Shown: positions 3,806-33,321 of the stretch, piece after piece | Layout: each line of letters opens with the position of its first letter | How positions within the stretch are numbered: the stretch's first letter is position 1 | From: Pseudomonas fragi | GTDB taxonomy: Bacteria > Pseudomonadota > Gammaproteobacteria > Pseudomonadales > Pseudomonadaceae | Direction: 5' to 3' | Assembly (NCBI RefSeq): GCF_002269505.1 | Contig: NZ_NQKQ01000013.1 | Location: 62,001 to 126,000 of the forward strand | Length of the DNA stretch: 64,000 nt | Program-made: the position numbers and the translations under genes | The notes under the pieces: generated by a model | Database searches by the model: none | Seen by the model: the letters and a program-made list of their open reading frames with translations, nothing else | What the model was told of the DNA's origin: nothing

Positions 3806-3829
3806 AACAGAATCCGTTTTCAAAGGGGC

Positions 3830-3867
3830 AGGCAACCCGCTCGCTCAAGCGGTACACGGGTTGCCCT
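3830..3867. terminator. Hairpin between batD and sbcD
   Basis: Inverted repeat aggcaacccg (3830-3839) / cgggttgccct (3857-3867), with a smaller inner stem. It lies just downstream of the batD stop, in the short gap before sbcD, so it could end the Bat transcript. It lacks a clear T-run, so termination is inferred from position and the stem only. Confidence 0.45.
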
Positions 3868-3871
3868 GAAA

Positions 3872-5506
3872 TTATTTGGGGTACAGCGGTGGCAGGCTGC
3901 TCGGCTCGCTGGCGTCTTGTTGCTCGCGTTCGGCGGCAGGAATGCTGCGGATGGCCTTCCACAGCTCATCGCCTTGCCAGTGCTGGCCGGTTTCGCTGTA
4001 GAGCGCGCCGTTGAGGCCGTCCAGGGCATCGGACAGCAACACAAAGCGTGCCGCCATATCGGCCAGGGTCTCGGGTTGCTGCCGCGCCCAGGCATCCAGG
4101 GCCTGGCGGGTGGCCTGGGGGTCGTTGGCCAGGCACGCGCGCTTCAGGTCGTCCAGCAGGGTGCGCGGGCTTGGGCCGGTTTGCGCAGCGCGCAGGATTG
4201 CCGGTTGCCAGCGGGCACGCCACCACAGACCCAGACTGGCCAGGGTGGTGAGTGCCAGAAACAGGGTGCTGAGCTGCCAGATCCAGAGCGAGGGCGCTTC
4301 GTTCTGCGCTGTTGTGGTGCCACTGACCGGTGTGTCCACAGCCAGAGTGGGGTTGGCCGCTGCGAGCAGGGTACGGGCGGGCAGGTAAGTGCGCTCCAGA
4401 TGATCTTCATGGGTGTTCCACCACACCACTTCGACGGCGGGCAGTTCAATCTGGCCAACCCGGGTCGGAACCAGTGCTTCGCGCTCTTCGCGGCTGCCGA
4501 TCAGGCCGTTTTCGGTGATCTGGTTGCTCAGTTGCGCCAGGTCGGGGTAGCGCCGCAGGCCGTTGACGTCGGTGGCGGGCAGGGGCGGCAGTTGGGCGCT
4601 GGACAGGCCTTCGGCCTTGAGGGTGAGGGTGCGGGTCAGCGAGTCACCGACCAGCGCATGGTCAGGCTCGGGGTTCCAGGTTTCACTCATGCTCAGGCTG
4701 CGCGCTGGTAACCAGGGGGCATTGGCAGGCCAGATGTCGGGCTTGGGCAGCACGTTCAGCGGGATTTCGGCCGAGGTCACGTGCACCATCTTGCCGGGCT
4801 TTGGCCCCAGCGGGGCAGGGGCCGTGGCTTGCTGGCTGTCGACCTGGGTGGCACTGAAGGTCTGGGCCGGGATGACCAGCTCGCCGCTGCGCTGCGGATA
4901 GATACCGTAGCGGCGTTCGATCACACCGTGGCGCACGCCATTGATCAATTTTTCATAGGTACGCGACTCGCCCAGTTGCTCGACAATGGCGTCGTCGAGG
5001 TGCAGGGCGGTCAGGCTGCTGTCATCGTACAGCGCCACCGAATGGTAAACGCGCACGGTCAGCAGCGCCTGGGCCTGCACATAGACGCTGGGCTGGTCGA
5101 GGCTGGCTTCGATAAATACCGGGGCCAGTTCGTTTTCGCTGGCCGCGCTCTGGGTGACGGTGAGGGTGATCGGCTGGCTGTGGTAGTCACCGACTTGCAG
5201 CGCCGGGATGATCACCGTGCCGGTCTGCTTGGGTTGCAGGGTGATCATCCAGCGGGTGGTGCCCTTGTTGTCGTCGCTTAGGCTGTTGAGCTGGTTGACC
5301 TGGCGGGTACCGCGTACTTCGAACAGGCCGTCCAGCGGGGTCAGGTCGGGCTTGCCAAACTGGGTGACGTCGTCGGACTCCAGGGTCAGCTCGACGGTTT
5401 CACCGGAGTTGAGCTGGTCGCGGTCAATGCTGGCGACCAGTCCCATGGCGTGTGCAGGCAAGGTCCAGCAACACAGCAGAAGAAGCAAAGCGCAGAGGCG
5501 GTTCAT
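3872..5506 (-). CDS. batD: BatD-like membrane protein
   Basis: Last gene of the Bat-type operon, 544 aa. Start chosen at MNRLCALLLL, which gives a Sec signal peptide ending near AHA and an ATGA overlap with the preceding VWA-TPR gene. The long periplasmic part is beta-rich and BatD-like (Pfam BatD, 'oxygen tolerance'). A single membrane helix near residues 390-415 (LWIWQLSTLFLALTTLASLGLWW) is followed by a cytoplasmic tail. BatD proteins act with BatA/BatB and MoxR in the cell envelope. Their molecular role is unsettled; Bacteroides work gave the aerotolerance name. Confidence 0.88.
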   Translation of the reverse strand: MNRLCALLLLLCCWTLPAHAMGLVASIDRDQLNSGETVELTLESDDVTQFGKPDLTPLDGLFEVRGTRQVNQLNSLSDDNKGTTRWMITLQPKQTGTVIIPALQVGDYHSQPITLTVTQSAASENELAPVFIEASLDQPSVYVQAQALLTVRVYHSVALYDDSSLTALHLDDAIVEQLGESRTYEKLINGVRHGVIERRYGIYPQRSGELVIPAQTFSATQVDSQQATAPAPLGPKPGKMVHVTSAEIPLNVLPKPDIWPANAPWLPARSLSMSETWNPEPDHALVGDSLTRTLTLKAEGLSSAQLPPLPATDVNGLRRYPDLAQLSNQITENGLIGSREEREALVPTRVGQIELPAVEVVWWNTHEDHLERTYLPARTLLAAANPTLAVDTPVSGTTTAQNEAPSLWIWQLSTLFLALTTLASLGLWWRARWQPAILRAAQTGPSPRTLLDDLKRACLANDPQATRQALDAWARQQPETLADMAARFVLLSDALDGLNGALYSETGQHWQGDELWKAIRSIPAAEREQQDASEPSSLPPLYPK

Positions 5507-7245
5507 TTGGGCGTGTCCTGATGGAGCTGCTGTTCGTACCAGAATTTGCGGCGCAACAATTCGCTGGGGTTGTCGGGGATCTGTCTGAGCCATTGTTCAA
5601 GTGCCTGGCGCTGTTCTTCTGCGGTCTGGTCGGCGGTCGGTGCGGGCGCACGGGTGGTGGGTTCGTCGCCAGGTTCGCCGTCGGCGCGCGGGGCAGCGTC
5701 GGGGTCGAGCTGCTCGTGCGGCGCCGGCTCGGTGCTGGGGTTAGTGGCCGAGCTGTTGTCTTCATTGTGCAGTGTGCTGCTGGAGGCACCCTGGGCGCTG
5801 CTGCTCAGCGGGGTTTCAGACTCGGCTGGCGCAGGCGGCTCGGGGGGCTGTTCGGTTTCGGCTTCGGCGGCAGCTGCGGCGCGCTGCTGCTCAAGCAGTT
5901 GCTCGACCAGGGCTTTGTTCTGCGCGGCGGCCTCCAGCTCGGGTTGCAGTTCCAGCGCCTGTTCCCAGGCATCGATGGCCGCTTCCAGCTCACCGTTCAT
6001 GGCCAGGGCATTGCCGCGATTATAGTGCGCGCTGGCGCTGTTGACTTCGGCAAAACGTCGGGCGGCGCCAGCATAGTCGCCAGCCCGGTACAGAGCCACG
6101 CCCTGCCAGAGCGGGTCGCTGAAATGCTCCACAGCCAGCAGCGGCTTGTTTTGCTGCAACAGGCGCAGGCCCTGTTGGTCGGGGCGCAGCCACAGGTCGG
6201 TAAAGCTCATGGCCTGCGCCGGCTGCGGTTGCAGCATAAACAGCAGGGGCAGGCAGAACAGCCAACCGCGCCGGCCTGCGCAGGCCACCAGCAGCAGAAG
6301 GGGCAGCAACAGCCAATAACCCTGGTCGGCCCAGGTATCCAGTTGCAGGGTCTGGCCGTCATTGCGCAGGTTGCGCGGGCCGTCGAGCAGGCCCAGACCG
6401 CGCAGGTCATTGTCATCCAGACGCGCCTGGCGATAGCGCCCGTCCACATCCAGGGCAAAGGCCCGCAGGCTGGGGCTGTCCAGGCGTGGCAGGAGAATGG
6501 CGCCCTGATCGTCCTTGAGGAATTGGCCACTTTCGTCCACCACCGGCGCGCCTTCGCGACTGCCAATACCCAGGATCAACAGTTGCGGAGCATGGCCGCT
6601 CAAGGCCTGGCGGATGCCGTTGCGTTCCTGTTCGCTGAGTGATGAGGTGATCAACAGCAAGCGACCCTGGCCCAGTGCGCTTTGATCCAGCAGTTCAAGG
6701 GCCTTGCCAATCGCCAGGTCGGCGCGATGCCCCGGCTGAGGCATGATCGACGGCTTGAGGGCTTCGAGCAGGTTGCGGCTGGTGGCCATGTCATCGGACA
6801 GCGGCACCAGGGTATGGGCACTGCCCGCGTAGATGATCACGGCGGATTGCGCGTCGTTACGGTTTTGCAGCAGGTCGTAGATCTTGCGCCGCGCCTGCTC
6901 CAGGCGGTTGGGCGAACTGTCGGTGGCGAGCATTTCGGGGGTCAGTTCGAGCATCACTACCAGGGGGTCTTCGGGTTTTTGCGAGGGCTGCTCGACGCGT
7001 TGCCAGCTGGGCCCGAGCAGGGCCAGCATGGCGAGCAGCCAGCCCAGGCCCAGGGCGATCCATGGCAGCTTGCTGCTGCGGCCGGTGCCGCCGCTGAGCA
7101 GCACCCGATGAAAAGCGGGCGGCAGGATTTTCTGCCAGCGACCGGCGCGTTTTTCCCGGTGCCAGCGCTGCCACAGCAACCAGCCGAGCAGCGGCAGGAT
7201 TAGCAGCCATTCGGGGCGCAACCAGTGCGGCCAGAGCGAGCTCAT
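5503..7245 (-). CDS. BatB/BatC-like fusion: VWA domain plus TPR, degenerate MIDAS
   Basis: 580 aa. Two N-terminal membrane helices (about residues 12-26 and 62-78) flank a short loop. A VWA domain follows (about 95-290), then one or two helices near 311-340, TPR repeats near 380-450, and a Pro/Glu/Ala-rich low-complexity tail. This architecture joins BatB (VWA) and BatC (TPR) in one chain. At the MIDAS position, where BatA has DVSGS, this protein has ELTPE (100-104), so divalent-metal binding is probably lost. It overlaps both neighbours by 4 bp. Confidence 0.88.
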   Translation of the reverse strand: MSSLWPHWLRPEWLLILPLLGWLLWQRWHREKRAGRWQKILPPAFHRVLLSGGTGRSSKLPWIALGLGWLLAMLALLGPSWQRVEQPSQKPEDPLVVMLELTPEMLATDSSPNRLEQARRKIYDLLQNRNDAQSAVIIYAGSAHTLVPLSDDMATSRNLLEALKPSIMPQPGHRADLAIGKALELLDQSALGQGRLLLITSSLSEQERNGIRQALSGHAPQLLILGIGSREGAPVVDESGQFLKDDQGAILLPRLDSPSLRAFALDVDGRYRQARLDDNDLRGLGLLDGPRNLRNDGQTLQLDTWADQGYWLLLPLLLLVACAGRRGWLFCLPLLFMLQPQPAQAMSFTDLWLRPDQQGLRLLQQNKPLLAVEHFSDPLWQGVALYRAGDYAGAARRFAEVNSASAHYNRGNALAMNGELEAAIDAWEQALELQPELEAAAQNKALVEQLLEQQRAAAAAEAETEQPPEPPAPAESETPLSSSAQGASSSTLHNEDNSSATNPSTEPAPHEQLDPDAAPRADGEPGDEPTTRAPAPTADQTAEEQRQALEQWLRQIPDNPSELLRRKFWYEQQLHQDTPK

Positions 7246-8315
7246 CGGCGCCTCCGCAAACGCAGGCGCGTGAGGCGCGCACGCCAGTCAGGGTGTTGCT
7301 GCAGAAAATGCTTCTTGCTCAGCCAGCGTTGCAGCGGGTTGTTGGGCCACAGTTCGCGGATCACCAGCAGCACGCTGAGCAACAGGGCCACGGCCAGCGG
7401 CCAGCTGTAGAGTGCCTGGGCCGGGCGCGCCTGGGTCGGTTGCTGGGCCACGGGTTCCAACTGGTCGAGGGTGTCCTTGATGGCTGCCAGTTCACCACCG
7501 TTGCGGGCACGGAAGTAGCGGCCACCGGTGACTTTGGCGATTTCTTCGAGCGCCGGTTCATCAAGGTCGACCCCGGGGTTGATGGTGAACATGCCCTTGC
7601 TGCTGTCGTCGGGGTCGGCGCCGATGCCGATGGGGTAGATTTTGACCCCCTCTTCGGCCGCTAGGCGTGCCGCTGTCAGCGGGTCGATCTGCCCGCCGTT
7701 GTTGGCACCATCGGTAATCAGGATCAGCACCCGGCTTTGTGCCGGGCGTTGGCGCAGGCGCTTGAGGGCCAGGCCAATGGCATCGCCGATAGCGGTATTT
7801 TTACCGGCGATGCCGATGCGTGCTTCGTCGAGCCAGGTGTGCACGGTGTGACGGTCAAAGGTCAGCGGCGCTTGCAGGTAAGCCTGGCTGCCGAACAGGA
7901 TCAGGCCGACGCGGTCGCCTTCACGGTTTTCCAGGAACTCGCCGAGCAGGTTTTTTACCAGGTCCAGGCGGGTTACGTCTTCACCCTGCCATTGCATGTC
8001 GGGGTAATCCATCGAGCCCGAGACATCCACCGCCACCAGCAAATCACGGCCGCTGGCAGCAATCGGCAACGGCTCACCCAGCCATTGCGGGCGGGCAGCG
8101 GCGGTCAGTAACAGCAACCAGAGCACGATATGAGGGATTTGCTGGCGCCAGGAGGGCAGGTTGGCGCGGGCTTTGCGTCGGGTCAGTTGCTCAAGGTCAC
8201 TCAAGAAACTGACCTGTAGCGCCGCCTCGCCGCTGTCGGCAGGCGGCAGCACCAGGCGCATCAACCAGGGCAGGGGCAGCAGGACGAAGATCCACGGCCA
8301 GGCAAATTCAAACAT
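7242..8315 (-). CDS. batA: BatA, VWA-domain membrane protein
   Basis: 357 aa. Start set at [10 protein letters not shown], immediately before the first membrane helix (residues 5-22) and overlapping the DUF4381 stop by 8 bp. A second helix covers about 58-73. The VWA domain has an intact MIDAS, DVSGS at 97-101, plus later Thr and Asp ligands (ITDGANNGG region). A C-terminal helix near 305-325 anchors the domain so that it faces the periplasm. It probably partners with the following VWA-TPR protein and is remodelled by the MoxR ATPase of the same operon. Confidence 0.92.
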   Translation of the reverse strand: MFEFAWPWIFVLLPLPWLMRLVLPPADSGEAALQVSFLSDLEQLTRRKARANLPSWRQQIPHIVLWLLLLTAAARPQWLGEPLPIAASGRDLLVAVDVSGSMDYPDMQWQGEDVTRLDLVKNLLGEFLENREGDRVGLILFGSQAYLQAPLTFDRHTVHTWLDEARIGIAGKNTAIGDAIGLALKRLRQRPAQSRVLILITDGANNGGQIDPLTAARLAAEEGVKIYPIGIGADPDDSSKGMFTINPGVDLDEPALEEIAKVTGGRYFRARNGGELAAIKDTLDQLEPVAQQPTQARPAQALYSWPLAVALLLSVLLVIRELWPNNPLQRWLSKKHFLQQHPDWRARLTRLRLRRRR

Positions 8316-8802
8316 GTTTGCGAATCCAGGTTTCAACCGCTTGATTGAGCCCGGCAATGGCTTTGTCGTCGAGCTTGCACTCGGGTTTATAGGCGCCTTC
8401 AACCAGCACCATCCAGCGGGTCAAACCGGCAGCCGGGCAGCGGTTGTCGAGAAACGCCAGCCACTTGCGACCATTGAGGGTGTGGCTCTGGCTGTAGGGG
8501 TAGTGGTTGCGGCACAGGCGCTTGAGCAGGCCGTTGAGCTGCTGCAACCAGGCGCCGGCCGGTGCGCCGTCGTAGGGTTTGGGAAAACGTGCCAGCTCTT
8601 CAAGGGCGGCCAGGCGCACCGGGTCGAGGGGTTGCTCGACGCGGGCCGGCTGGCGTGTGGCGGGCAGGTAGCGGCGCAGCCACCACAGGCCCCAACCCAG
8701 CGCGGGCAGCACAATCAGCAGCAGCCACCAGCCCGGTGCCGGCGGCCAGATACCGAGTTCGGGCGGTGTGATCAAAGGTTGCAGTTGCTCAAGTTGTTTC
8801 AT
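8308..8802 (-). CDS. DUF4381 membrane protein
   Basis: 164 aa. N-terminal [22 protein letters not shown], then one membrane helix (about residues 26-45) with a Trp-rich end, then a basic cytoplasmic domain. This is the DUF4381 family, a constant member of gammaproteobacterial MoxR-DUF58-VWA operons. No catalytic motif is visible. It overlaps the DUF58 gene by 4 bp and batA by 8 bp, so a role in the same membrane complex is inferred from context. Confidence 0.88.
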
Positions 8803-9743
8803 GAGGCTTTGCCGGGGCGTTTGGCGTTGAGGTATTCACGCAGTTGTTCGACCATTTCACTTTGGGTGCTGAGCGGCATCAGCAATACCCGCAGCTTTTG
8901 CGCCAGCAGTTCCCAGCGGGCGATGCGGGCTTCGCCCTGGGCGCGGTAGGCCTGACGCAAATCATAATTGAGCGTATCCAGTTCCAGCTGCGCACCGCCC
9001 TCGGCAAAGCGCAGCAGCCCGGCAGCGGGCAGGGCGTGATCCAGCGGGTCGGACAGCGGCAGCAACATCAGGTCGCAGTGGCGCGACAACAGGCTCAATT
9101 GCTGTTCAGCGGCGTCGGTGAGGCCGCGCTCATCGCAGATCACGATCACCAGGCTGCCGGGGCGCAGCACTTCGCGGGCGCGGATCAGGGCCATGCCCAG
9201 GGCATCGCGGTCCGATTGTACCTCGGTGTGCAGCGACTGGTTGACCCGCACCAGACGGTTAAGCAACTGCAACAGGCTCTGCTTGCTGCGCCGTGGTTTG
9301 ATTTCATAGTGTTCATGGTCGCCAAACACCAGCCCGCCGACGCGATCGTTATGGCCCAGCGCAGCCCAGCCGATCAGGCTCGCGGCCTGGGCGGCGAGCA
9401 CTGATTTGAACATCTGCCCCGAGCCGAAAAACAGCCGCCGGCTTTGTTCAGCGAGGATAAAGATCGGCCGCTCGCGCTCCTCATGAAACATCTTGGTGTG
9501 AGGTTCCTGGGTGCGGGCGGTGACACGCCAATCGATGGTGCGCACATCGTCACCAGCCTGATAGACCCGCACCTGATCGAAATCGACCCCGCGCCCGCGC
9601 AGTTTCGAGTGATGCAAGCCCACCAGCGGGCTGCGCTGGCTGGGCGAGGAGAACAGCTGCACCTCGCGCACCCGGTGGCGCATCTCGATCAGTTGCGCAA
9701 GGGTGACGCGGATGCCGGGTTCGGCGGGCAGGGGGGTGTTCAT
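8799..9743 (-). CDS. DUF58 domain protein
   Basis: 314 aa, no signal or membrane segment. The DUF58 signature is present: YQAGDDVRTIDWRVTART followed by the F.EERERPIFIL stretch, near residues 60-95. DUF58 proteins have a VWA-like fold; the motif expected after the signature reads AEQSRR here. It sits between the MoxR ATPase (3-bp gap) and DUF4381 (4-bp overlap), the standard order. The function is probably as a MoxR client or adaptor for the membrane VWA proteins. Confidence 0.92.
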   Translation of the reverse strand: MNTPLPAEPGIRVTLAQLIEMRHRVREVQLFSSPSQRSPLVGLHHSKLRGRGVDFDQVRVYQAGDDVRTIDWRVTARTQEPHTKMFHEERERPIFILAEQSRRLFFGSGQMFKSVLAAQAASLIGWAALGHNDRVGGLVFGDHEHYEIKPRRSKQSLLQLLNRLVRVNQSLHTEVQSDRDALGMALIRAREVLRPGSLVIVICDERGLTDAAEQQLSLLSRHCDLMLLPLSDPLDHALPAAGLLRFAEGGAQLELDTLNYDLRQAYRAQGEARIARWELLAQKLRVLLMPLSTQSEMVEQLREYLNAKRPGKAS

Positions 9744-9746
9744 CGG

Positions 9747-10706
<960 letters not shown>

Positions 10707-23352: not shown

Positions 23353-24276
23353 CTAAGCGGATGCTGAGTTTGACGCCTGGGCAACGCTCTTGTGATGGGC
23401 CAGCACTCTATTGATCAAGGCCCGGGTCACCTTGGGCAGTGCCTGCAGGTCTCGCACCAGAATGCTGCGTTCGCGCACCCGCCAGGGCTCGTCCAGTTCG
23501 ATCACCGTCAGGCCCATGGTCTGCTGATGGCGACGGGCCGAAGACTCCGGCAGGATGGCAATGCCCACCCCGGCTTCGACCATACGGCACATGGCCTCGA
23601 AGCTGTAGACCTTGATGCGCATGTTCAAGGTCTTGCCGTGCAGGGCGACCTGTTCATGCAAAAAGCGTAGCAGGGTCGTGCCTTCGTGCAGGCCGATATG
23701 TGGATAGGCCAGGGTTTCGGCCAGTTTGATCGACGTGCAGTGGGCCAGGGGATGATCGAGGGGCGTGACCAGGACTAACTGGTCGGTACTGAAGTGGATG
23801 ACTTGCAGGCTGTCGGCTTCGACCGGGCCGGCAATGATGCCCATATCCGTTGAGCCATCCATGACCCCGCGAACAATATCGCGGCTCAGGCGCTCTTGCA
23901 GGTCCACCGTTACACCGGGACGTTCGGCCAGGAAACCGGCCAGGATTCCCGGCAGAAATTCGCTCGCCGCGGTGGTGTTGGCGAAGATCCTGATATGCCC
24001 CGAAGCCTCGGTATCGTACTCGGTGAACTCGCTTTTCATATAGTCCACCTGGCGCATGATCACCCGCGCATGCTGCAAAAACAGTTCGCCGGCAGGGGTC
24101 AGTTCTACGCCGCGGCTGTCGCGGTACAACAGGCGGCTGGCGAGGTTTTCTTCCAGACTCTTGATCCGCGCACTGGCCGCTGCCGGGGAGATAAACGCCT
24201 TGCGCGCCCCCTGGGTGAGGCTGGGGGATTCGGCGATATGAATAAACAGGCGCAGGTCGACAAGATCAAAGTGCAT
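23353..24276 (-). CDS. LysR regulator of the itaconate operon (inferred)
   Basis: 307 aa LysR-type regulator. The N-terminal winged HTH is LVDLRLFIHIAESPSLTQGARKAFISPAAASARIKSLEENL; the effector domain starts near residue 90. It is divergent from the itaconate catabolic operon, as the LysR gene is in the equivalent P. aeruginosa cluster, so it probably activates that operon in response to itaconate or its CoA ester. A perfect inverted repeat lies in the shared intergenic region. Confidence 0.92.
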   Translation of the reverse strand: MHFDLVDLRLFIHIAESPSLTQGARKAFISPAAASARIKSLEENLASRLLYRDSRGVELTPAGELFLQHARVIMRQVDYMKSEFTEYDTEASGHIRIFANTTAASEFLPGILAGFLAERPGVTVDLQERLSRDIVRGVMDGSTDMGIIAGPVEADSLQVIHFSTDQLVLVTPLDHPLAHCTSIKLAETLAYPHIGLHEGTTLLRFLHEQVALHGKTLNMRIKVYSFEAMCRMVEAGVGIAILPESSARRHQQTMGLTVIELDEPWRVRERSILVRDLQALPKVTRALINRVLAHHKSVAQASNSASA

Positions 24277-24401: not shown

Positions 24402-25232
24402 ATGAGCGATAACGCACTGTCTGCCTGGATCGGTCGTACTGAAGAAATCCATGATTATCTGAGCCTGAACCTGGTAACCCGTATCGCCGCTACTTTCGGT
24501 GAGAGGGTGCCGCAGGTCGGTGAGCCGCTGCCGGCGTTGTGGCAGTGGTGTTTCTTCCAGCCTGCGGTGGAGGAGAGCGGGCTGGGCGGCGATGGTCACC
24601 CGGCCCGAGGCGGGTTTTTGCCGCCTGCCCACAACCGTAATCGCATGTGGGCGGGCGGACGTGTCGAGTTTTTCACGGCACTCAAGGTGGATGCCTGGGC
24701 AACACGGGTTTCCACCATCCTCGATGTGCGCGAAAAGCACGGCAAAACCGGCGCGCTGTTGTTTGTCACGGTCCAGCACGACTATGTACAGGACGGCCAA
24801 CTGGCCATTCGTGAAGAGCAGGACATCGTCTACCGCGAACCCACCCCGCCCAAGCTGGCTGATGGCGAGCCCTTGCCTGCGGGCATCTGGCAGGAGTCGA
24901 TCACGCCCAGCCCCACCTTGCTGTTTCGCTACTCGGCCGTGACCTTCAATGGTCATCGCATTCACTACGACTGGCCCTATGCGAGCGCAACCGAAGGCTA
25001 CCCGGGGCTGGTGGTACACGGGCCGCTGATGGCCACCCTGAGCCTGCGCGCTTTTTGTCGCGCCAACCCTCATGCCCATGTACGCCGCTTTGCCTATCGC
25101 GGCGTGCGGCCGCTGATTGCGCCCCGGCCTTTTTTACTCCGGGGGCGGGTCGTGGCAGCGGGCAAGGCCGAGTTGTGGGTGGGCAACTCAGAGGGCATCG
25201 CCCAGCAGGGTGAAGTGAGCTTCAACGAATAA
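24402..25232 (+). CDS. ich: Itaconyl-CoA hydratase (MaoC-like)
   Basis: 276 aa, double hot-dog protein. The N-terminal half is FAS1-dehydratase-like. The C-terminal half has the MaoC hydratase motif: TFNGHRIHYDWPYA (catalytic Asp/His region) and GYPGLVVHGPLMATL. It hydrates itaconyl-CoA to citramalyl-CoA in itaconate catabolism. It heads the ich-acad-voc-prpD-ict-ccl-dctPQM operon; the same order in P. aeruginosa, known for itaconate use, supports the assignment. A mesaconyl-CoA hydratase is the nearest alternative by family. Confidence 0.88.
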   Translation: MSDNALSAWIGRTEEIHDYLSLNLVTRIAATFGERVPQVGEPLPALWQWCFFQPAVEESGLGGDGHPARGGFLPPAHNRNRMWAGGRVEFFTALKVDAWATRVSTILDVREKHGKTGALLFVTVQHDYVQDGQLAIREEQDIVYREPTPPKLADGEPLPAGIWQESITPSPTLLFRYSAVTFNGHRIHYDWPYASATEGYPGLVVHGPLMATLSLRAFCRANPHAHVRRFAYRGVRPLIAPRPFLLRGRVVAAGKAELWVGNSEGIAQQGEVSFNE

Positions 25233-25250: not shown

Positions 25251-26414
25251 ATGAATCCGTATCTGAACGAAGACTACAACGCCATTCGCGAGGGTGTGCG
25301 CGCCCTGTGTGCTGAGTTTCCGGCCGAGTACTGGCGCAGAATTGACGAAGAAAAGGGCTTTCCTGAAGCCTTTGTCGCCGCCATGACCAAAGCGGGCTGG
25401 TTGTCGGCGATGATCCCGGAGCACTACGGCGGCTCGGGCCTGGGGCTGGCCGAAGCCTCGATAATTCTCGAAGAAGTGAACCATTGTGGCGGCAACTCCG
25501 GCACCGTGCATGGCCAGATGTACAACATGTTTACCTTGCTGCGCCACGGCAGCGAGGCGCAAAAAAACGACTACCTGCCCCGGCTGGCCAGCGGTGAACT
25601 GCGCTTGCAGTCGATGGCGGTGACCGAACCGAGCACGGGCACCGACACCACCAAAATCAAGACCACCGCCGTGCGCCAGGGTGACAAGTATGTGATCAAT
25701 GGCCAGAAGGTGTGGATCTCCAGGGTTCAGCATTCCGATCTGATGATCCTGCTGGCCCGCACCACGCCGTTGGCCGACGTGCAGAAAAAAGCCGACGGCA
25801 TGTCGATCTTCCTGGTTGATCTGCGCGAAGCCATCGGCAACGGCCTGACCGTGCAGCCGATTGCCAATATGGTCAATCACGAAACCAACGAGCTGTTTTT
25901 CGACAACCTTGAAATCCCCGTCAGCAGCCTGATTGGCGAAGAGGGCAAAGGCTTTCGCTATATCCTCGACGGGCTCAATGCCGAGCGCACGCTGATCGCC
26001 GCCGAATGCATCGGTGATGGCCGCTGGTTCAATGAAAAGTCCGCGCAGTACGCCCGTGATCGCGTTGTGTTTGATCGCCCGATCGGCCGGAATCAGGGTG
26101 TGCAGTTCCCGATTGCCGAAGCCCATATCGAGCTTGAGGCCGCCGATTTGATGCGCTGGCGTGCCTGCGAAGAATACGACAGTGGGGGCAAGGCTGGAGC
26201 AGCGGCCAATATGGCCAAGTACCTGGCGGCCAAGGCCAGTTGGGAAGCCGCCAACGCCTGCCTGCAAACCCACGGTGGTTTCGGCTTTGCCAATGAATAC
26301 GATGTCGAACGCAAGTTTCGCGAGACCCGTCTGTACCAGGTAGCGCCTATTTCCACCAACCTGATCCTGTCCTATGTGGCCGAGCACCTGCTCGACTTGC
26401 CGCGTTCCTTTTAA
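25251..26414 (+). CDS. Acyl-CoA dehydrogenase in the itaconate operon
   Basis: 387 aa FAD-dependent acyl-CoA dehydrogenase. Motifs: MAVTEPSTGTDTTKIKTTA (flavin/substrate loop), then VINGQKVWISRVQHSD, and C-terminal LQTHGGFGFANEYDVERKFRETRLYQVAPISTN. Strong ribosome site aaggag. Substrate unknown; the three core itaconate enzymes do not need it. A C5 dicarboxylyl-CoA such as methylsuccinyl-CoA is a guess from context. The conserved ACAD base cannot be fixed by eye, because E is not at the usual YE.G position. Confidence 0.92.
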   Translation: MNPYLNEDYNAIREGVRALCAEFPAEYWRRIDEEKGFPEAFVAAMTKAGWLSAMIPEHYGGSGLGLAEASIILEEVNHCGGNSGTVHGQMYNMFTLLRHGSEAQKNDYLPRLASGELRLQSMAVTEPSTGTDTTKIKTTAVRQGDKYVINGQKVWISRVQHSDLMILLARTTPLADVQKKADGMSIFLVDLREAIGNGLTVQPIANMVNHETNELFFDNLEIPVSSLIGEEGKGFRYILDGLNAERTLIAAECIGDGRWFNEKSAQYARDRVVFDRPIGRNQGVQFPIAEAHIELEAADLMRWRACEEYDSGGKAGAAANMAKYLAAKASWEAANACLQTHGGFGFANEYDVERKFRETRLYQVAPISTNLILSYVAEHLLDLPRSF

Positions 26415-26430
26415 GCAACGGAGATTGAGC

Positions 26431-26823
26431 ATGCAGATCAGTCATCTGGACCATCTGGTTCTGACAGTGCGGGATATCCCCGCGAGCCTGGATTTTTACA
26501 GCCGGGTGTTGGGCATGCAGCCCGTGGTGTTCGGTCAGGGCCGCCATGCCCTTGGGTTCGGTCAGCAAAAGATCAACCTGCATCAGGCCGGTGCCGAATT
26601 CGAGCCCAAGGCCAACCAGCCACTGCCGGGTTCGGCAGACCTGTGTTTTATCGTCGCAACCCCGTTGGATGCGGTGATCGAGCAGTTGCATGGCCTGGGT
26701 GTTGCCATCCTCGAGGGGCCGGTCATGCGCACCGGTGCCCAGGGGGCGATTCGCTCGATTTACCTGCGCGACCCGGATCTGAACCTGATCGAGTTGTCCA
26801 ATGTGCTGGAGAACGCGGCATGA
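26431..26823 (+). CDS. VOC/glyoxalase-fold protein in the itaconate operon
   Basis: 130 aa. Typical VOC start ISHLDHLVLTVRDIPASLDFYSRVLGM, later HALGFGQQKINLHQ and C-terminal YLRDPDLNLIELSN, which supply the His/His/Glu metal ligands. The fold covers glyoxalases, epimerases and ring-cleaving dioxygenases. An epimerase or lactone/CoA-ester isomerising role would suit the neighbours but is not shown. The start at ATG 26431 follows a ggag-like site; it overlaps the next gene by ATGA. Confidence 0.85.
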   Translation: MQISHLDHLVLTVRDIPASLDFYSRVLGMQPVVFGQGRHALGFGQQKINLHQAGAEFEPKANQPLPGSADLCFIVATPLDAVIEQLHGLGVAILEGPVMRTGAQGAIRSIYLRDPDLNLIELSNVLENAA

Positions 26824-28190
26824 GTCAGCACACACAAGCGCTTTGCGCTTTTTTGACCGACCTGGATTACCCGCAGTTGCCCGAAGCGGTTATCAGTCGC
26901 ACGCAAGAGCTGTTTCTTGACTGGCTGGGCTCGGCCCTGGCCAGTCAGGGGGCGCACCCGATCCCGTTGTTCGAGCGCTACGCGGCGAAGATGGGGCCGG
27001 CCAACGGGCCTGCCGGCATTCTGGTCAATGGCCGGTCCACCTCGGCGTATTTTGCCGCGCTGGTCAATGGTGCCAGCTCCCATTTGGTGGAGCAGGACGA
27101 CCTGCACAACAGCTCCGTGCTGCACCCGGCGACCGTGGTGTTTCCTGCGGTGCTGGCGGCGGCACAGGACCTGGGCAAATCGGGTCGTGAACTGATCCTC
27201 GCCGCTGTCGCCGGTTATGAAGCGGGCATTCGCATCGGTGAGTTTCTTGGCCGCTCGCATTACCGCATCTTTCACACCACGGCCACGGTCGGCACCCTGG
27301 CGGCAGCGGTGGGTGTCGGCAAGCTGATGGGGTTCAATCAGCAGCAGTTCACCCATCTGCTGGGCAGCGCCGCAACCCAGGCCGCGGGCCTGTGGGAGTT
27401 TCTGCGCGATGCTGCGGACTCCAAACAGCTGCATACCGCCAAGGCAGCGGCCGATGGTTTGCTGGCGGCTTACCTGACGGCTGAAGGGCTGAGCGGGGCA
27501 AAGAACATTCTCGAAGGCGAACAGGGCATGGCTGCCGGCATGTCCAGTGATGCCAACCCGACCTGCCTGTCTGATCGCCTGGGCAGCCGCTGGGCACTGA
27601 CCGAAACTTCCTTCAAGTTTCATGCCTCATGCCGTCACACTCACCCGGCTGCAGATGCACTGCTGGGGTTGATGCAACGCGAGGGGGTGTGCGCAGAGGA
27701 CATTGCCAGCGTCACCACCCGGGTCCATCAAGCCGCTATCGATGTCCTGGGACGCGTAGTGGTGCCGCAGAGTGTGCACCAGGCCAAGTTTTCCATGGGC
27801 ACGGTGCTGGGCCTGATCGCCGTTTACGGCAAGGCCGGACTGCCGGAATTTCACCAGCATGCACTGACCGATCCGCGCATCAGCGCCTTTTGCGACAAGG
27901 TGCGCATGGAACTGGACGAGGAAGTCGACAGCGCCTATCCGCAACGCTGGCTGGGCCGGGTGACGGTGACCACGGTGCAGGGCAATACCTTGTACGGGAG
28001 CATCGACGAACCCAAGGGCGACCCGGGCAATACCCTCAGCCGCGCCGAACTGGAAGACAAATTTCGCCGCCTGCTGGCCTTCTCAGGGGCGCGCAGCAAC
28101 GAGCAAGCAAGCGGGCTCGTGGAGCTGGTCTGGAACCTGCGCCATCTAGACGACTTGAGTGGGCTGACGCGCACCGGGAGCCCATCATGA
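26820..28190 (+). CDS. MmgE/PrpD family protein in the itaconate operon
   Basis: 456 aa, full length. It has the MmgE/PrpD all-helical domain with LDWLGSALAS near residue 30, VLHPATVVFPAVLAAAQ, and FHTTATVGTLAAAVG, followed by the C-terminal alpha/beta lid with KFHASCRHTHPAADAL. The family includes 2-methylcitrate dehydratase, immune-responsive cis-aconitate decarboxylase (which makes itaconate) and iminodisuccinate epimerase. Its presence in an itaconate-degrading operon is therefore notable. It overlaps both neighbours by 4 bp. Confidence 0.9.
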   Translation: MSQHTQALCAFLTDLDYPQLPEAVISRTQELFLDWLGSALASQGAHPIPLFERYAAKMGPANGPAGILVNGRSTSAYFAALVNGASSHLVEQDDLHNSSVLHPATVVFPAVLAAAQDLGKSGRELILAAVAGYEAGIRIGEFLGRSHYRIFHTTATVGTLAAAVGVGKLMGFNQQQFTHLLGSAATQAAGLWEFLRDAADSKQLHTAKAAADGLLAAYLTAEGLSGAKNILEGEQGMAAGMSSDANPTCLSDRLGSRWALTETSFKFHASCRHTHPAADALLGLMQREGVCAEDIASVTTRVHQAAIDVLGRVVVPQSVHQAKFSMGTVLGLIAVYGKAGLPEFHQHALTDPRISAFCDKVRMELDEEVDSAYPQRWLGRVTVTTVQGNTLYGSIDEPKGDPGNTLSRAELEDKFRRLLAFSGARSNEQASGLVELVWNLRHLDDLSGLTRTGSPS

Positions 28191-29392
28191 GCGTCGCCGC
28201 ACACAAACCCCGTCCACTGGACGGCATTACGGTGGTCAGTCTGGAGCACGCCATTGCCGCGCCGTTTTGCACTCGCCAACTGGCCGACCTCGGTGCCCGG
28301 GTAATCAAGATCGAGCGCCCCGGCTCCGGTGACTTTGCTCGCGACTATGACGGGCGGGTCAATGGCCTGGCTTCGCACTTTGTCTGGACTAACCGCTCCA
28401 AGGAAAGCCTGACCCTCAACGTCAAGCAGCCGCCAGCCGCGGATGTGCTCGACAAGCTGCTGGCCACGGCCGATGTGCTGGTACAGAACCTGGCGCCGGG
28501 CGCGGCAGAGCGCATGGGGCTGTCGTTTGCAACCCTGCATGAGCGTTTCCCGAGGTTGATCGTCTGCGATATTTCCGGCTACGGCGAGGGCGGGCCCTAC
28601 GAGCAGAAAAAGGCGTACGACCTGCTGATTCAGAGTGAAGGCGGCTTTTTGTCCGTGACCGGCGGGCCCGGGGAAAACGACATGGCCAAGGCCGGTTGCT
28701 CGATTGCCGATATCGCTGCGGGCATGTACGCCTATACCGGTGTGCTCTCGGCCTTGCTGTTGCGGGACAAGACCGGGGAGGGCAGCCGCATTGATGTGTC
28801 GATGCTTGAAAGCCTGGTGGAGTGGATGAACTACCCGCTGTATTACGCCTACGACGGTGCTGCGCCACCACCGCGGGCGGGGGCCGCGCATGCCACCATC
28901 TACCCCTACGGGCCGTTCCCCACCGGTGACGGCGGCACGGTGATGCTTGGCCTGCAGAATGAACGCGAATGGCAGCAATTTTGCGACAGGGTGTTGCTAC
29001 AGCCGGACCTGGCGAGCAACCCGAGCTTTAATGCCAATGCGCGGCGCTCGGAGAACCGCAGCGAGTTACGCGCCATCATCGTTGAAGTCTTTGCCAGCAT
29101 GGGGGCCGATGAAGTGATTGCCCGGCTCGACGGGGCAGCGATTGCCAATGCCCATGTCAACGATATGGCCGGTGTGTGGGCCCATCCGCAATTGGCCGCC
29201 CGTGAACGCTGGCGCGAGGTGGACAGCCCTGCGGGCAAGTTGCCGGCGCTGCTGCCACCGGGGCGCAACGCGGCTTTCGAGCCGCGTATGGATGCGGTGC
29301 CGGGTCTGGGCCAGCACACCGACAGCCTGCTGAGTGAACTGGGTTACGCCGCAGATGAGATCCAGCATCTGCATCAACAAGGAGCGGTATAA
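28187..29392 (+). CDS. ict: Itaconate CoA-transferase (CaiB/BaiF family)
   Basis: 401 aa class III CoA-transferase. It begins with PLDGITVVSLEHAIAAPFCTRQLADLGARVIKIERP, then DFARDYDG and NVKQPPAADVLDKLL; the catalytic Asp is expected in the NDMAKAGCSIADIAAGMYA region. It activates itaconate by transferring CoA from succinyl-CoA. Position between prpD and ccl matches ict of P. aeruginosa. ATGA overlap with the previous stop. Confidence 0.9.
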   Translation: MSVAAHKPRPLDGITVVSLEHAIAAPFCTRQLADLGARVIKIERPGSGDFARDYDGRVNGLASHFVWTNRSKESLTLNVKQPPAADVLDKLLATADVLVQNLAPGAAERMGLSFATLHERFPRLIVCDISGYGEGGPYEQKKAYDLLIQSEGGFLSVTGGPGENDMAKAGCSIADIAAGMYAYTGVLSALLLRDKTGEGSRIDVSMLESLVEWMNYPLYYAYDGAAPPPRAGAAHATIYPYGPFPTGDGGTVMLGLQNEREWQQFCDRVLLQPDLASNPSFNANARRSENRSELRAIIVEVFASMGADEVIARLDGAAIANAHVNDMAGVWAHPQLAARERWREVDSPAGKLPALLPPGRNAAFEPRMDAVPGLGQHTDSLLSELGYAADEIQHLHQQGAV

Positions 29393-29408: not shown

Positions 29409-30236
29409 ATGGATAACACCAGCATTCGTTCAGCGCTGTTTGTCCCGGGCACTCGCCCCGAGCGCATACCCAAGGCGCTGCAAAGCGGCGCCGATCAGGT
29501 GATCGTCGATCTGGAAGACGCCGTGGCCGAAGACCTCAAGGCCCAGGCCCGGGCCAACCTGGATGCTTTCCTTGAGGCCAATCCCCAGGCCCGTGTCCTG
29601 GTGCGCATCAATGCGCCGCAGCATCCGCAGCAGGCAGCCGATATCGAATTGTGCCGTCGCCGGCCCGGCGTAGTGGCGGTATTGCTGCCCAAGGCCGAAA
29701 GCGCGGCACAGGTCGAACAGGCTGCGGCGTGTGGCAAGGCAGTGTGGCCGATTATTGAAAGCGCCAGGGGCTTGCTTGAGTTGCCGGCCATTGCCCGGGC
29801 TCGCGGGGTTGAGCGTCTGAGTTTCGGTGCGCTGGACCTGGGCCTGGACCTGGGCCTGACCAGCGACACGGCTGGCGCGCAGCGCATTCTCGATCAGGCC
29901 CGATACGCCATTTTGCTGCACAGCAGCCTGGCGCAACTGGCGCCGCCGCTGGACAGTGTGTTTGCCGATATCAAAAACACCGCCGGTATGACCCGCATGG
30001 CCGCCGATGCCAGAGATATGGGCTTTGGCGGACTGCTGTGCATTCACCCGAGCCAGGTGGCATTGATTCACGCCGCCTATATGCCCCGTCAGGATGAACT
30101 GGACTGGGCGCGGCGGGTTCTGGATACCGTTGCATCTGCAGGCGGGGTGTTTGTGCTCGACGGGCAGATGGTCGACGCCCCGGTGATCGGCCTTGCCCGG
30201 CGGGTATTGCACCGGGCCGGTCGGCCTTGTGCCTGA
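29409..30236 (+). CDS. ccl: Citramalyl-CoA lyase (CitE-like)
   Basis: 275 aa HpcH/HpaI-CitE family TIM barrel. Motifs: RSALFVPGTRPERIPKAL, then QVIVDLEDAVAEDLKAQAR (metal Glu/Asp) and PIIESARGLLELPAI with FGALDLGLDLGL. It cleaves citramalyl-CoA to acetyl-CoA and pyruvate, the last step of itaconate breakdown. The start at ATG 29409 is chosen for its ggag site and the family N-terminus; the frame stays open upstream into ict. Confidence 0.9.
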   Translation: MDNTSIRSALFVPGTRPERIPKALQSGADQVIVDLEDAVAEDLKAQARANLDAFLEANPQARVLVRINAPQHPQQAADIELCRRRPGVVAVLLPKAESAAQVEQAAACGKAVWPIIESARGLLELPAIARARGVERLSFGALDLGLDLGLTSDTAGAQRILDQARYAILLHSSLAQLAPPLDSVFADIKNTAGMTRMAADARDMGFGGLLCIHPSQVALIHAAYMPRQDELDWARRVLDTVASAGGVFVLDGQMVDAPVIGLARRVLHRAGRPCA

Positions 30237-31307
<1,071 letters not shown>

Positions 31308-31405
31308 ACGTCGCCAGTGCTGATTGCCGTGGGTGGTCCTGCAGGGATCGCCACGGCAACCTTTGCTCCGTCGTTTCTCGACCGCTCTTTCAAGGGAGAC
31401 AACCC

Positions 31406-32044
31406 ATGCACGCAGCCGTTCGTGTCTGGAATCACGCGGAAGAAATGCTGGTGGCGTTCCTGCTTGCAGGCATGACCCTGGTGACCTTCGCGTATGTGAT
31501 TTTCAACAACCTCTATGGCGTTTTCTACTCCCTGGGGGATTCGCTGCCGTTCGCCAACGAGGCCATGCTCGGCATCGGTGACAGCATTCTTTACGTCGCC
31601 CAGGAGATGACCTGGAGTGTGGCCTTGACCAAGGCCATGTTCGGCTGGCTGATTTTTGTCGGTCTGGCCTGGGGCGTGCGCATTGGTGCGCATATTGGTG
31701 TCGACTTGCTGGTGCGCCAGTTCAAGCCTGCCAACCAGCGGCGGGTGGCCTTGCTGGCCGTGGCCATTTGTCTGGGTTACTGCGTGCTGATGGCGTACTC
31801 CAGCGAGCAGTGGGTGGCCACGTTGTATGCCGTTGGCACCAGTGCTGAAGACCTGGACCGCTTCGGTATCAAACAATGGCAAGTGGTGATGATAGTGCCG
31901 ATCGGTTTTGCCTTGATGTTTGTGCGTTTCCTGCAGGTTTTTATCCGCATCATTCAGGGCAAGCAGCAAGGCCTGGGCTTGCACAGTGAGGTGGATGATG
32001 CCGTCAAACTGGCGGAAAACGACCAGCAGGGGACTCCAAAATGA
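31406..32044 (+). CDS. dctQ: TRAP transporter small membrane subunit (DctQ)
   Basis: 212 aa. Four predicted membrane helices (about residues 13-35, 70-92, 115-137, 155-180 in this start). DctQ-type WGVRIGAHIGVDLLVRQF motif in the middle. ATG at 31406 has gggag nine bases upstream. It overlaps dctM by ATGA. It forms the membrane complex with DctM for Na+-coupled uptake. Confidence 0.92.
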   Translation: MHAAVRVWNHAEEMLVAFLLAGMTLVTFAYVIFNNLYGVFYSLGDSLPFANEAMLGIGDSILYVAQEMTWSVALTKAMFGWLIFVGLAWGVRIGAHIGVDLLVRQFKPANQRRVALLAVAICLGYCVLMAYSSEQWVATLYAVGTSAEDLDRFGIKQWQVVMIVPIGFALMFVRFLQVFIRIIQGKQQGLGLHSEVDDAVKLAENDQQGTPK

Positions 32045-33321
32045 CCATTGCCTTCCTTTTTGTCGCCTTGTTCGTGCTGATGTTTGTCGGTATTCCGGTG
32101 GCGATTTCCCTGGGTTTGTCCGGGGCCATGACCATTCTGTTCTTCAGTAACGACTCGGTGCGTTCGCTGGCGATCAAGCTGTTTGAAACCAGCGAGCACT
32201 ACACATTGCTGGCGATCCCGTTCTTTCTGCTATCGGGTGCATTCATGACCAGCGGCGGCGTTGCCCGGCGCCTGATCGATTTTGCCAACGCCTGCGTCGG
32301 GCATATCAAGGGTGGCCTGGCCATCGCCGCAATCCTGGCCTGCATGCTGTTTGCGGCACTCAGTGGCTCGTCGCCGGCTACGGTGGCGGCGGTGGGCTCG
32401 ATCGTGATCGCCGGCATGGTGCGATCGGGCTACAAGCAGGATTTTGCCGCCGGTATTGTCTGCAACGCCGGTACCTTGGGCATCCTGATTCCGCCGTCGA
32501 TCGTGATGGTGGTCTACGCCACCGCCACCGAAACCTCGGTGGGCAAGCTGTTTATGGCCGGTGTTGTGCCGGGTCTGTTGCTGGGGCTGGTATTGATGGT
32601 GACCATCTACATCCTGGCGCGGGTCAAGGACATGCCTTCGCTGCCCCGGGCCTCGTTCAGGGACATCGTCACTGCAGGGCGCCGCGCCGGTTGGGGCCTG
32701 ATGTTGATCGTGATCATTCTCGGCGGTATTTATTCGGGCATGTTCACCCCCACCGAAGCGGCAGCGGTGGCGGCGGTGTATGCCGCGTTTGTGGCGATCT
32801 TTATCTACAAGGACATGACCGTCCGTGAATGCCCGAAGGTGATTGTCGAGGCGGGCAAACTGAGTGTGGTGCTGATGTTTATCATTGCCAATGCCATGCT
32901 CTTTGCCCATGTGCTGACCACCGAGCAGATCCCGCAGTCGATTACCGCCTGGGTGGTGGAGCAGGGTTTTACCCCGATTGAGTTTCTGTTGGTGGTCAAT
33001 ATTGTGTTGCTGGTAGCCGGGACTTTTATGGAGCCTTCGGCAATCATCCTGATTCTGGCGCCGATCCTGTTTCCGATTGCTATGCAACTGGGCATTGACC
33101 CGATCCACCTGGGCATAATCATGGTGGTGAATATGGAGATCGGCCTGATCACGCCACCCACCGGGCTTAACCTGTTTGTCACCTCGGCGGTCACGGGCAT
33201 GCCGCTGACCCGCGTGGTGCGTGCGGTATCGCCGTGGCTGCTGGTGATGCTGGCGTTCCTGGTGCTGGTGACATACGTGCCGTTTGTGTCGCTGGCATTG
33301 CCGAACTGGTTGGGGATGTAG
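32041..33321 (+). CDS. dctM: TRAP transporter large membrane subunit (DctM)
   Basis: 426 aa, about 12 membrane helices. DctM signatures: LLAIPFFLLSGAFMTSGGVARRL, LSGSSPATVAAVGSI, GTLGILIPPSIVMVVYA, FTPTEAAAVAAVYA and GLITPPTGLNLFV. It is the transport subunit of the TRAP system that closes the itaconate operon. No terminator hairpin with a T-run is obvious after the stop; a REP follows. Confidence 0.95.
   Translation: MTIAFLFVALFVLMFVGIPVAISLGLSGAMTILFFSNDSVRSLAIKLFETSEHYTLLAIPFFLLSGAFMTSGGVARRLIDFANACVGHIKGGLAIAAILACMLFAALSGSSPATVAAVGSIVIAGMVRSGYKQDFAAGIVCNAGTLGILIPPSIVMVVYATATETSVGKLFMAGVVPGLLLGLVLMVTIYILARVKDMPSLPRASFRDIVTAGRRAGWGLMLIVIILGGIYSGMFTPTEAAAVAAVYAAFVAIFIYKDMTVRECPKVIVEAGKLSVVLMFIIANAMLFAHVLTTEQIPQSITAWVVEQGFTPIEFLLVVNIVLLVAGTFMEPSAIILILAPILFPIAMQLGIDPIHLGIIMVVNMEIGLITPPTGLNLFVTSAVTGMPLTRVVRAVSPWLLVMLAFLVLVTYVPFVSLALPNWLGM

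Follow-up and report, generated by a model that had tools for sequence, protein, structure and literature searches.

The itaconate operon of Pseudomonas aeruginosa, PA0878-PA0886, carries three genes between ich and ict that encode an acyl-CoA dehydrogenase (ACAD; PA0879), a VOC protein (PA0880) and an MmgE/PrpD family protein (PA0881), and the roles of these genes are already known, having been published in 2023 and 2025. As described in the available parts of PMC9875883 (de Witt 2023) and PMC12290011 (Gonner 2025), PA0879 is a methylsuccinyl-C4-CoA dehydrogenase and PA0881 an (S)-(R)-methylsuccinate isomerase (both papers), and PA0880, named RdoPA, is a 2-hydroxyparaconate lactonase (PMC9875883). 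The same gene content and order, including the genes for a TRAP transporter, were found in the stretch of Pseudomonas fragi DNA analyzed here, a window of 64,000 nucleotides (contig NZ_NQKQ01000013.1; G000:C5:62001-126000) from a genome of 5.05 Mb. The operon in the window is a P. aeruginosa-type itaconate operon, and the window thus adds one more example of an operon already characterised, whose accessory functions were settled in other work. The preliminary description of this DNA had named a prior assignment of the three genes in P. aeruginosa as a ground for refuting it; PA0879, PA0880 and PA0881 have previously been assigned, and the three-gene finding is not new.

That description did, on the other hand, read the arrangement correctly, since open reading frames (ORFs), Pfam domains and gene overlaps all place the three genes in coupled order, tightly packed on the + strand between ich and ict. 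The ACAD gene (25251-26414, + strand, 387 aa) occupies the position of PA0879 (PMC9875883, PMC12290011) and its product carries the N, M and C acyl-CoA dehydrogenase domains of Pfam (C-terminal domain, E 1.2e-34). After 16 bases, as read from the sequence, it is followed by the VOC gene (26431-26823, + strand, 130 aa; Pfam Glyoxalase PF00903, E 4.6e-12), a predicted 2-hydroxyparaconate lactonase gene of the RdoPA type, which shares a 4-base overlap, ATGA, with the predicted (S)-(R)-methylsuccinate isomerase gene msi (26820-28190, + strand, 456 aa; MmgE_PrpD N and C domains, E 9.2e-71 and 4.9e-46), of the PA0881 type. Another 4-base ATGA overlap joins msi to ict, with the ict ATG on the msi stop codon. 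The ATG codons at 26431 and 26820 lie downstream of the mechanical ORF starts for the VOC and PrpD genes, at 26374 and 26643, respectively.

Very probably, the presence of the three genes makes this an operon for both itaconate and methylsuccinate that also contains a lactone-detoxification gene. In such an operon, the PrpD-family protein would interconvert (S)- and (R)-methylsuccinate via an enolate, Ict would make (R)-methylsuccinyl-C4-CoA, the ACAD would oxidise this thioester to mesaconyl-C4-CoA, and Ich and Ccl would complete the route to acetyl-CoA and pyruvate. The VOC protein would hydrolyse fungal (S)-2-hydroxyparaconate to itatartarate, probably at its conserved metal site, and thereby relieve inhibition. 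For the window proteins, these activities are suggested by gene order, family and residue matches; the activities themselves were reported for P. aeruginosa genes in P. putida and for purified P. aeruginosa and C. necator enzymes.

In P. putida with the P. aeruginosa cluster, growth on methylsuccinate depended on PA0879, and growth on the (S) enantiomer on PA0881 as well, while growth on itaconate required none of the three genes (PMC9875883). The purified P. aeruginosa and C. necator dehydrogenases act on methylsuccinyl-CoA, with mesaconyl-C4-CoA as the product of the C. necator enzyme (PMC12290011; Gonner 2025). Without PA0880, 2-hydroxyparaconate persisted and brought growth on itaconate to a halt; with PA0880, itatartarate accumulated and the inhibition was lifted (PMC9875883). 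The idea that the three genes feed related C5 compounds into the pathway or deal with side products therefore holds for methylsuccinate, both stereoisomers of which enter through the ACAD and the PrpD-family protein, but a role in mesaconate or (S)-citramalate use is rejected, as both were used independently of all three genes (PMC9875883). Similarly, a part for the VOC protein in C5-acid metabolism survives as the detoxifying opening of 2-hydroxyparaconate to itatartarate, but not as access to a carbon source, since a mixture of the two compounds supported growth of none of the tested strains (PMC9875883). (R)-Citramalate was not metabolised via the itaconate operon (PMC9875883).

Several points weigh against this interpretation of the window operon. 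The lactonase assignment comes from a single study, in which mixtures of fungal acids were used, with neither the pure lactone nor a purified enzyme (PMC9875883), and the available text of PMC12290011 calls the role of PA0880 proposed. Moreover, the likely fit of the window proteins to PA0879, PA0880 and PA0881 rests on order, family and residues and not on percent identity, and all NCBIfam models scored below cut-off with the ACAD, the VOC protein and the PrpD-family protein.

The preliminary description had also pointed to the macrophage enzyme that makes itaconate as a relative of the PrpD-family protein. The two do belong to the same family, but the purified MmgE/PrpD isomerase was not detectably active on cis-aconitate, trans-aconitate, itaconate, mesaconate or citraconate, according to the available parts of PMC12290011. 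All seven Msi residues named there with P. aeruginosa numbering (His88, Glu91, His102, Tyr148, His152, Lys202 and Lys266) are found at identical positions in the window protein, which by these active-site residues, by its family and by its location in an itaconate cluster with an acyl-CoA dehydrogenase appears to match Msi (PA0881 and C. necator E6A55_22590). It is barely credible that the protein is instead a cis-aconitate decarboxylase or a methylcitrate dehydratase involved in making or recycling a C5 or C6 acid. While cis-aconitate decarboxylases (6r6u, 12ux, 12vw) share the Pfam family and match the protein at E 1e-30 to 3.5e-27, they catalyze another reaction and rank, among solved relatives, behind IDS epimerase (2hp0/2hp3; E 1.8e-34) and B. 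subtilis IRG1. The residue aligned with Tyr148 is likewise tyrosine in both IDS epimerase and B. subtilis IRG1, whereas cis-aconitate decarboxylase has a proline there, and the NCBIfam PrpD model scored 39 bits against a cut-off of 950. On the inactivity of the purified homologue with cis-aconitate, the E-value ranking and Tyr148, the decarboxylase assignment was rejected. IDS epimerase shares the histidine and tyrosine pair with the window protein; it differs in its substrate and in an aspartate opposite Glu91, which is also an aspartate in B. subtilis IRG1 and cis-aconitate decarboxylase.

For the ACAD, the three acyl-CoA dehydrogenase domains and the location in the cluster are those of an (RS)-methylsuccinyl-C4-CoA dehydrogenase (Mcd). 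The protein has Glu245 in the motif GLNAER, at what we take to be the position of the isovaleryl-CoA dehydrogenase base, and has no glutamate in LYQVAPIST (361-369). Its best NCBIfam matches, both below cut-off, are acryloyl-CoA reductase and glutaryl-CoA dehydrogenase, and its best solved relative is FadE3, which would fit an enzyme that acts on another acyl-CoA, such as glutaryl-CoA, and belongs to the operon by position only. This is very improbable given that PA0879 is required for growth on methylsuccinate (PMC9875883), that the purified enzymes use methylsuccinyl-CoA (PMC12290011) and that, in all 17 other loci with both genes, the ACAD gene directly precedes the PrpD gene or is separated from it by the VOC gene alone.

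These 17 loci (L051, L061-L066, L181, L182, L207, L238, L251, L071, L072, L076, L101 and L149) include two, L061 and L149, that appear to be one genome, as they have the same gene layout. The PrpD gene is followed by ict and then ccl in 15 of the 17; the L238 stretch ends before ict and ccl, and in L101, from Oceanobacillus, ccl and ict lie ahead of the ACAD gene. Because gene order is conserved across loci, a chance grouping of the ACAD and PrpD genes is excluded. In L101 (Oceanobacillus oncorhynchi, 3173-10378), the ccl-, ict-, ACAD- and PrpD-like genes (33, 58, 56 and 39% identity) are followed by a VOC relative (63%), so that a Bacillota genome holds a VOC gene within about 7 kb of an itaconate-type cluster of another gene order.

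The VOC gene is a separable add-on, a loose gene of the operon. Among 298 Pseudomonas genomes, PrpD matches (E 1e-100 or better) were found in 87, ccl matches (1e-60 or better) in 106 and VOC matches (1e-10 or better) in 84 (78 of these, with 82 places, reach 1e-20), yet the VOC gene lies between the ACAD and PrpD genes in only three, the window genome, G292 and G116. Separability follows from operons with PrpD proteins 93% (G256) and 89% (G244) identical to that of the window, in which the PrpD gene comes directly after the ACAD gene without a VOC gene. Likewise, a VOC gene between the two was found in three of the 80 named loci (the best 80 of 430 found), from P. psychrophila, P. kuykendallii and a Salinicola metagenome-assembled genome.

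By its location between the ACAD and PrpD genes of an itaconate operon and by its family, the window VOC protein corresponds to RdoPA. The closest structures are 3ey7/3ey8 (3ey7 presumably from Vibrio), 3huh/3hnq (Salmonella STM3117) and 3zw5 (human GLOD5), with 80/124 (65%; 3ey7), 74/126 (59%; STM3117) and 68/123 (55%; GLOD5) identical residues. H8, H51, D70 and E121 are invariant in all 10 rows of alignment A1, which does not include PA0880 itself, and human GLOD5 keeps the equivalents of all four; H8, H51 and E121 are presumably the VOC metal ligands. Many VOC enzymes are glutathione-dependent or epimerases, and the window protein could be a glyoxalase-like enzyme or an epimerase with a secondary effect on 2-hydroxyparaconate. 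In line with this, 43 of 81 VOC neighbourhoods in the genus hold none of the searched genes, 54 of the 80 named loci (best of 430) hold the VOC gene only, and a review reports methylglyoxal and glutathione activity for the relative STM3117. This explanation is nevertheless unlikely, as 2-hydroxyparaconate stays and growth stops without PA0880, and itatartarate accumulates with it (PMC9875883). Ustilago maydis Rdo1 is likewise a VOC-type protein from an itaconate gene cluster, but that cluster is one of itaconate production (PMC9875883).

Neither STM3117 nor GLOD is named in the main texts of PMC9875883 and PMC12290011, and no paper on GLOD5 together with itaconate was found in the literature searched, which covered few subscription papers and no preprints. 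Two reviews, PMC7397319 (2020) and PMC13307414 (2026), in their available parts equate STM3117 with RipA, a CoA-transferase; since 3huh/3hnq (STM3117) is about 59% identical to the window VOC protein, the gene numbers in these reviews seem to be shifted by one. The adjacency of the Salmonella VOC gene to the rip cluster is taken from PMC7397319. No match to RipC_Ccl above cut-off was found in 274 genomes of the class or in 197 genomes of the order of a Serratia genome, and the sole match at E 1e-60 or better among the 197 (G705) had no VOC match in its 18-kb stretch. In four Acinetobacter loci (L097, L110, L140 and L143), the VOC relative lies amid about ten further gene families common to all four, none of which match the searched itaconate or second-cluster genes.

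Among the remaining genes of the window operon, ich (24402-25232, + strand), named itaconyl-CoA hydratase by its position from PMC9875883, has FAS1_DH_region as its sole Pfam match (26.5 bits, cut-off 22). Downstream of msi are ict (28187-29392, + strand; Pfam CoA_transf_3, 1.5e-102), encoding a family III itaconate/(R)-methylsuccinate CoA-transferase, and ccl (29406 or 29409 to 30236, + strand; Pfam HpcH_HpaI), encoding (S)-citramalyl-CoA lyase, which scored below the cut-off of NCBIfam RipC_Ccl (161.9 of 375 bits). The TRAP transporter genes (30315-33321, + strand; Pfam DctP, DctQ and DctM) are in the position of IctPQM, a name taken from the title of PMC12599236. A divergent gene for a LysR-type regulator (23353-24276, - strand; Pfam HTH_1 and LysR_substrate) lies upstream, in what we take to be the PA0877 position. 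The operon proteins of P. psychrophila are 80-99% identical to those of the window.

In the genus, many VOC proteins about 60% identical to that of the window are encoded away from the itaconate operon. Before annotation it was noted as a guess that those adjoining a CoA-transferase gene may serve the catabolism of 2-hydroxyparaconate and itatartarate, with hydroxypyruvate enzymes and a lyase of the CitE or HMGL type expected nearby. We tentatively propose, with somewhat less than even confidence, that many pseudomonads have a separate catabolic cluster for these two fungal compounds. In this second cluster, the VOC relative would open the lactone to itatartarate, a family III CoA-transferase would make (S)-itatartaryl-CoA, an enzyme of the 3-hydroxy-3-methylglutaryl-CoA (HMG-CoA) lyase type would cleave it to acetyl-CoA and hydroxypyruvate, and a D-2-hydroxyacid dehydrogenase, together with glycerate kinase in P. 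benzenivorans, would send hydroxypyruvate via glycerate to glycolysis. The fungal lactone is cited as (S) in PMC9875883. As the change from CH3 to CH2OH swaps the two lowest priorities, (S)-itatartaryl-CoA should have the geometry of (R)-citramalyl-CoA. The Ccl-type lyase PA0883 is specific for (R)-HMG-CoA, which would match (S)-citramalyl-CoA, and the HMGL-type lyase PA2011 is specific for (S)-HMG-CoA (PMC6689899, available parts), so that an HMGL-type lyase would be expected for (S)-itatartaryl-CoA. This itatartarate route is put forward here as a testable prediction; in the literature covered, no title among those listed pointed to bacterial itatartarate breakdown apart from PMC9875883 and PMC12290011, and no paper was found on itatartaryl-CoA or on itatartarate together with hydroxypyruvate. 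If correct, the route would give bacteria a way to break down two fungal derivatives of itaconate, which the 2023 study described as inhibitory or as dead ends; it would also account for the need for a second lyase type and supply genes for the use of these acids.

Second-cluster genes matched HMGL-like (PF00682), D-2-hydroxyacid dehydrogenase (PF02826), glycerate kinase (PF02595), phosphoenolpyruvate carboxylase and dicarboxylate symporter (PF00375) in Pfam; of the NCBIfam models, just two reached their cut-offs, "glycerate kinase" and the subfamily model "hydroxymethylglutaryl-CoA lyase". The distribution was assessed in 81 neighbourhoods (80 and the window) covering the 82 VOC places of the 298-genome sample, with identity thresholds of at least 60% for the CoA-transferase, at least 59% for the lyase and at least 55% for the dehydrogenase. 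The VOC gene was in the itaconate operon in 3 neighbourhoods, itaconate operon genes were within 8 kb in 4, and a CoA-transferase and lyase pair was within 8 kb in 22 (19 with a clade-A and 3 with a clade-B lyase). These clades come from a lyase tree of 40 rows, in which clades A (21 rows, VOC-linked), B (8 rows, with TRAP genes) and C (9 rows) are each set off by a starred branch; we take clade C to represent the HMG-CoA lyases of the leucine pathway (MvaB), and the second-cluster lyase falls outside it. In the clade-A clusters, the lyase and VOC genes are on the same strand in 19/19 and at most 32 bases apart in 18/19 (2 bases in L061, from coordinates), with a D-2-hydroxyacid dehydrogenase gene in 16/19 and a symporter gene in 15/19. 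By comparison, the dehydrogenase gene was found in none of 56 neighbourhoods outside the operon and without the transferase-lyase pair. Clade-A lyases (76-100% identity) occur in 20 genomes, directly beside the VOC gene in 18, 2.3 kb away in G241 and, in G235, on the same contig at a distance of about 47 kb. In P. benzenivorans the clade-A cluster directly follows the itaconate operon. Five of the 80 named loci (best of 430) combine CoA-transferase, lyase and VOC genes (L136, L141, L144, L148 and L149).

Alternatively, the second cluster may degrade (R)-citramalate, through a CoA-transferase and an HMGL-type (R)-citramalyl-CoA lyase, or another acid, a possibility that we hold at clearly less than even confidence. 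PA2011, which takes (S)-HMG-CoA (PMC6689899), by our reading the geometric counterpart of (R)-citramalyl-CoA, fits this alternative, as do a sister clade-B pair with LysR and TRAP genes in G008, G035 and G113, which have no VOC (E 1e-10) or ccl (1e-60) match, a clade-B pair directly behind the itaconate operon in G202, and the separate branching of the second-cluster VOC proteins from those of the operon. Left unexplained by (R)-citramalate degradation are the VOC gene beside the clade-A lyase gene, the dehydrogenase in 16 of the 19 clusters and the glycerate kinase of P. benzenivorans. Clade-B lyases (59-66% identity) are found in 18 genomes, in 10 of them within 1.6 kb of ccl by coordinates, as confirmed in the G202 stretch. 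The absence of VOC and ccl matches at these thresholds in G008, G035 and G113 suggests that the clade-B pair has another substrate, perhaps (R)-citramalate. In L250 (G035), L251 (G202), L253 (G008) and L254 (G113), the cluster consists of CoA-transferase, HMGL-type lyase, LysR and TRAP genes with no VOC gene nearby.

A number of observations count against the proposed itatartarate route. None of the searched genes were found in 43 of the 81 neighbourhoods, CoA-transferase and VOC genes occur without the lyase in 9, and clade-B lyase clusters occur without a VOC gene. The betaproteobacterial loci L141 and L148 combine CoA-transferase, lyase and VOC genes without such a dehydrogenase, and glycerate kinase (at least 60% identity) was found in P. 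benzenivorans alone. The solved relatives of the dehydrogenase include glycerate, phosphoglycerate and D-lactate dehydrogenases, a mixture from which kinship does not tell hydroxypyruvate from pyruvate as substrate. Furthermore, in a VOC tree with few columns, a bootstrap that had not settled and a midpoint root, all labelled second-cluster VOC proteins are separated by a starred branch (100/99, length 0.37) from the operon VOC proteins, so that this separate and strongly supported branch may have a different substrate; the 5 A1 rows from the second-cluster side retain the metal residues. The full-cluster label changes 6 times on this tree, suggesting that the link between cluster and VOC gene was gained or lost repeatedly.

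In the window genome itself, a search for the lyase found nothing at E 1e-70 or better; a CoA-transferase relative (57%) is encoded elsewhere, and the 17 kb around it likewise gave no match to the lyase. Itatartarate, described as a dead end in P. aeruginosa (PMC9875883), is probably also a dead end in the species of the window. Finally, in L051 (G001) and L052 (G164), the DctM encoded beside the second-cluster VOC gene is 99% (121 residues, L051) and 95% (426 residues, L052) identical to that of the window, compared to 57% for DctP and 74-75% for DctQ, a pattern suggesting that two TRAP loci have recombined or undergone gene conversion.

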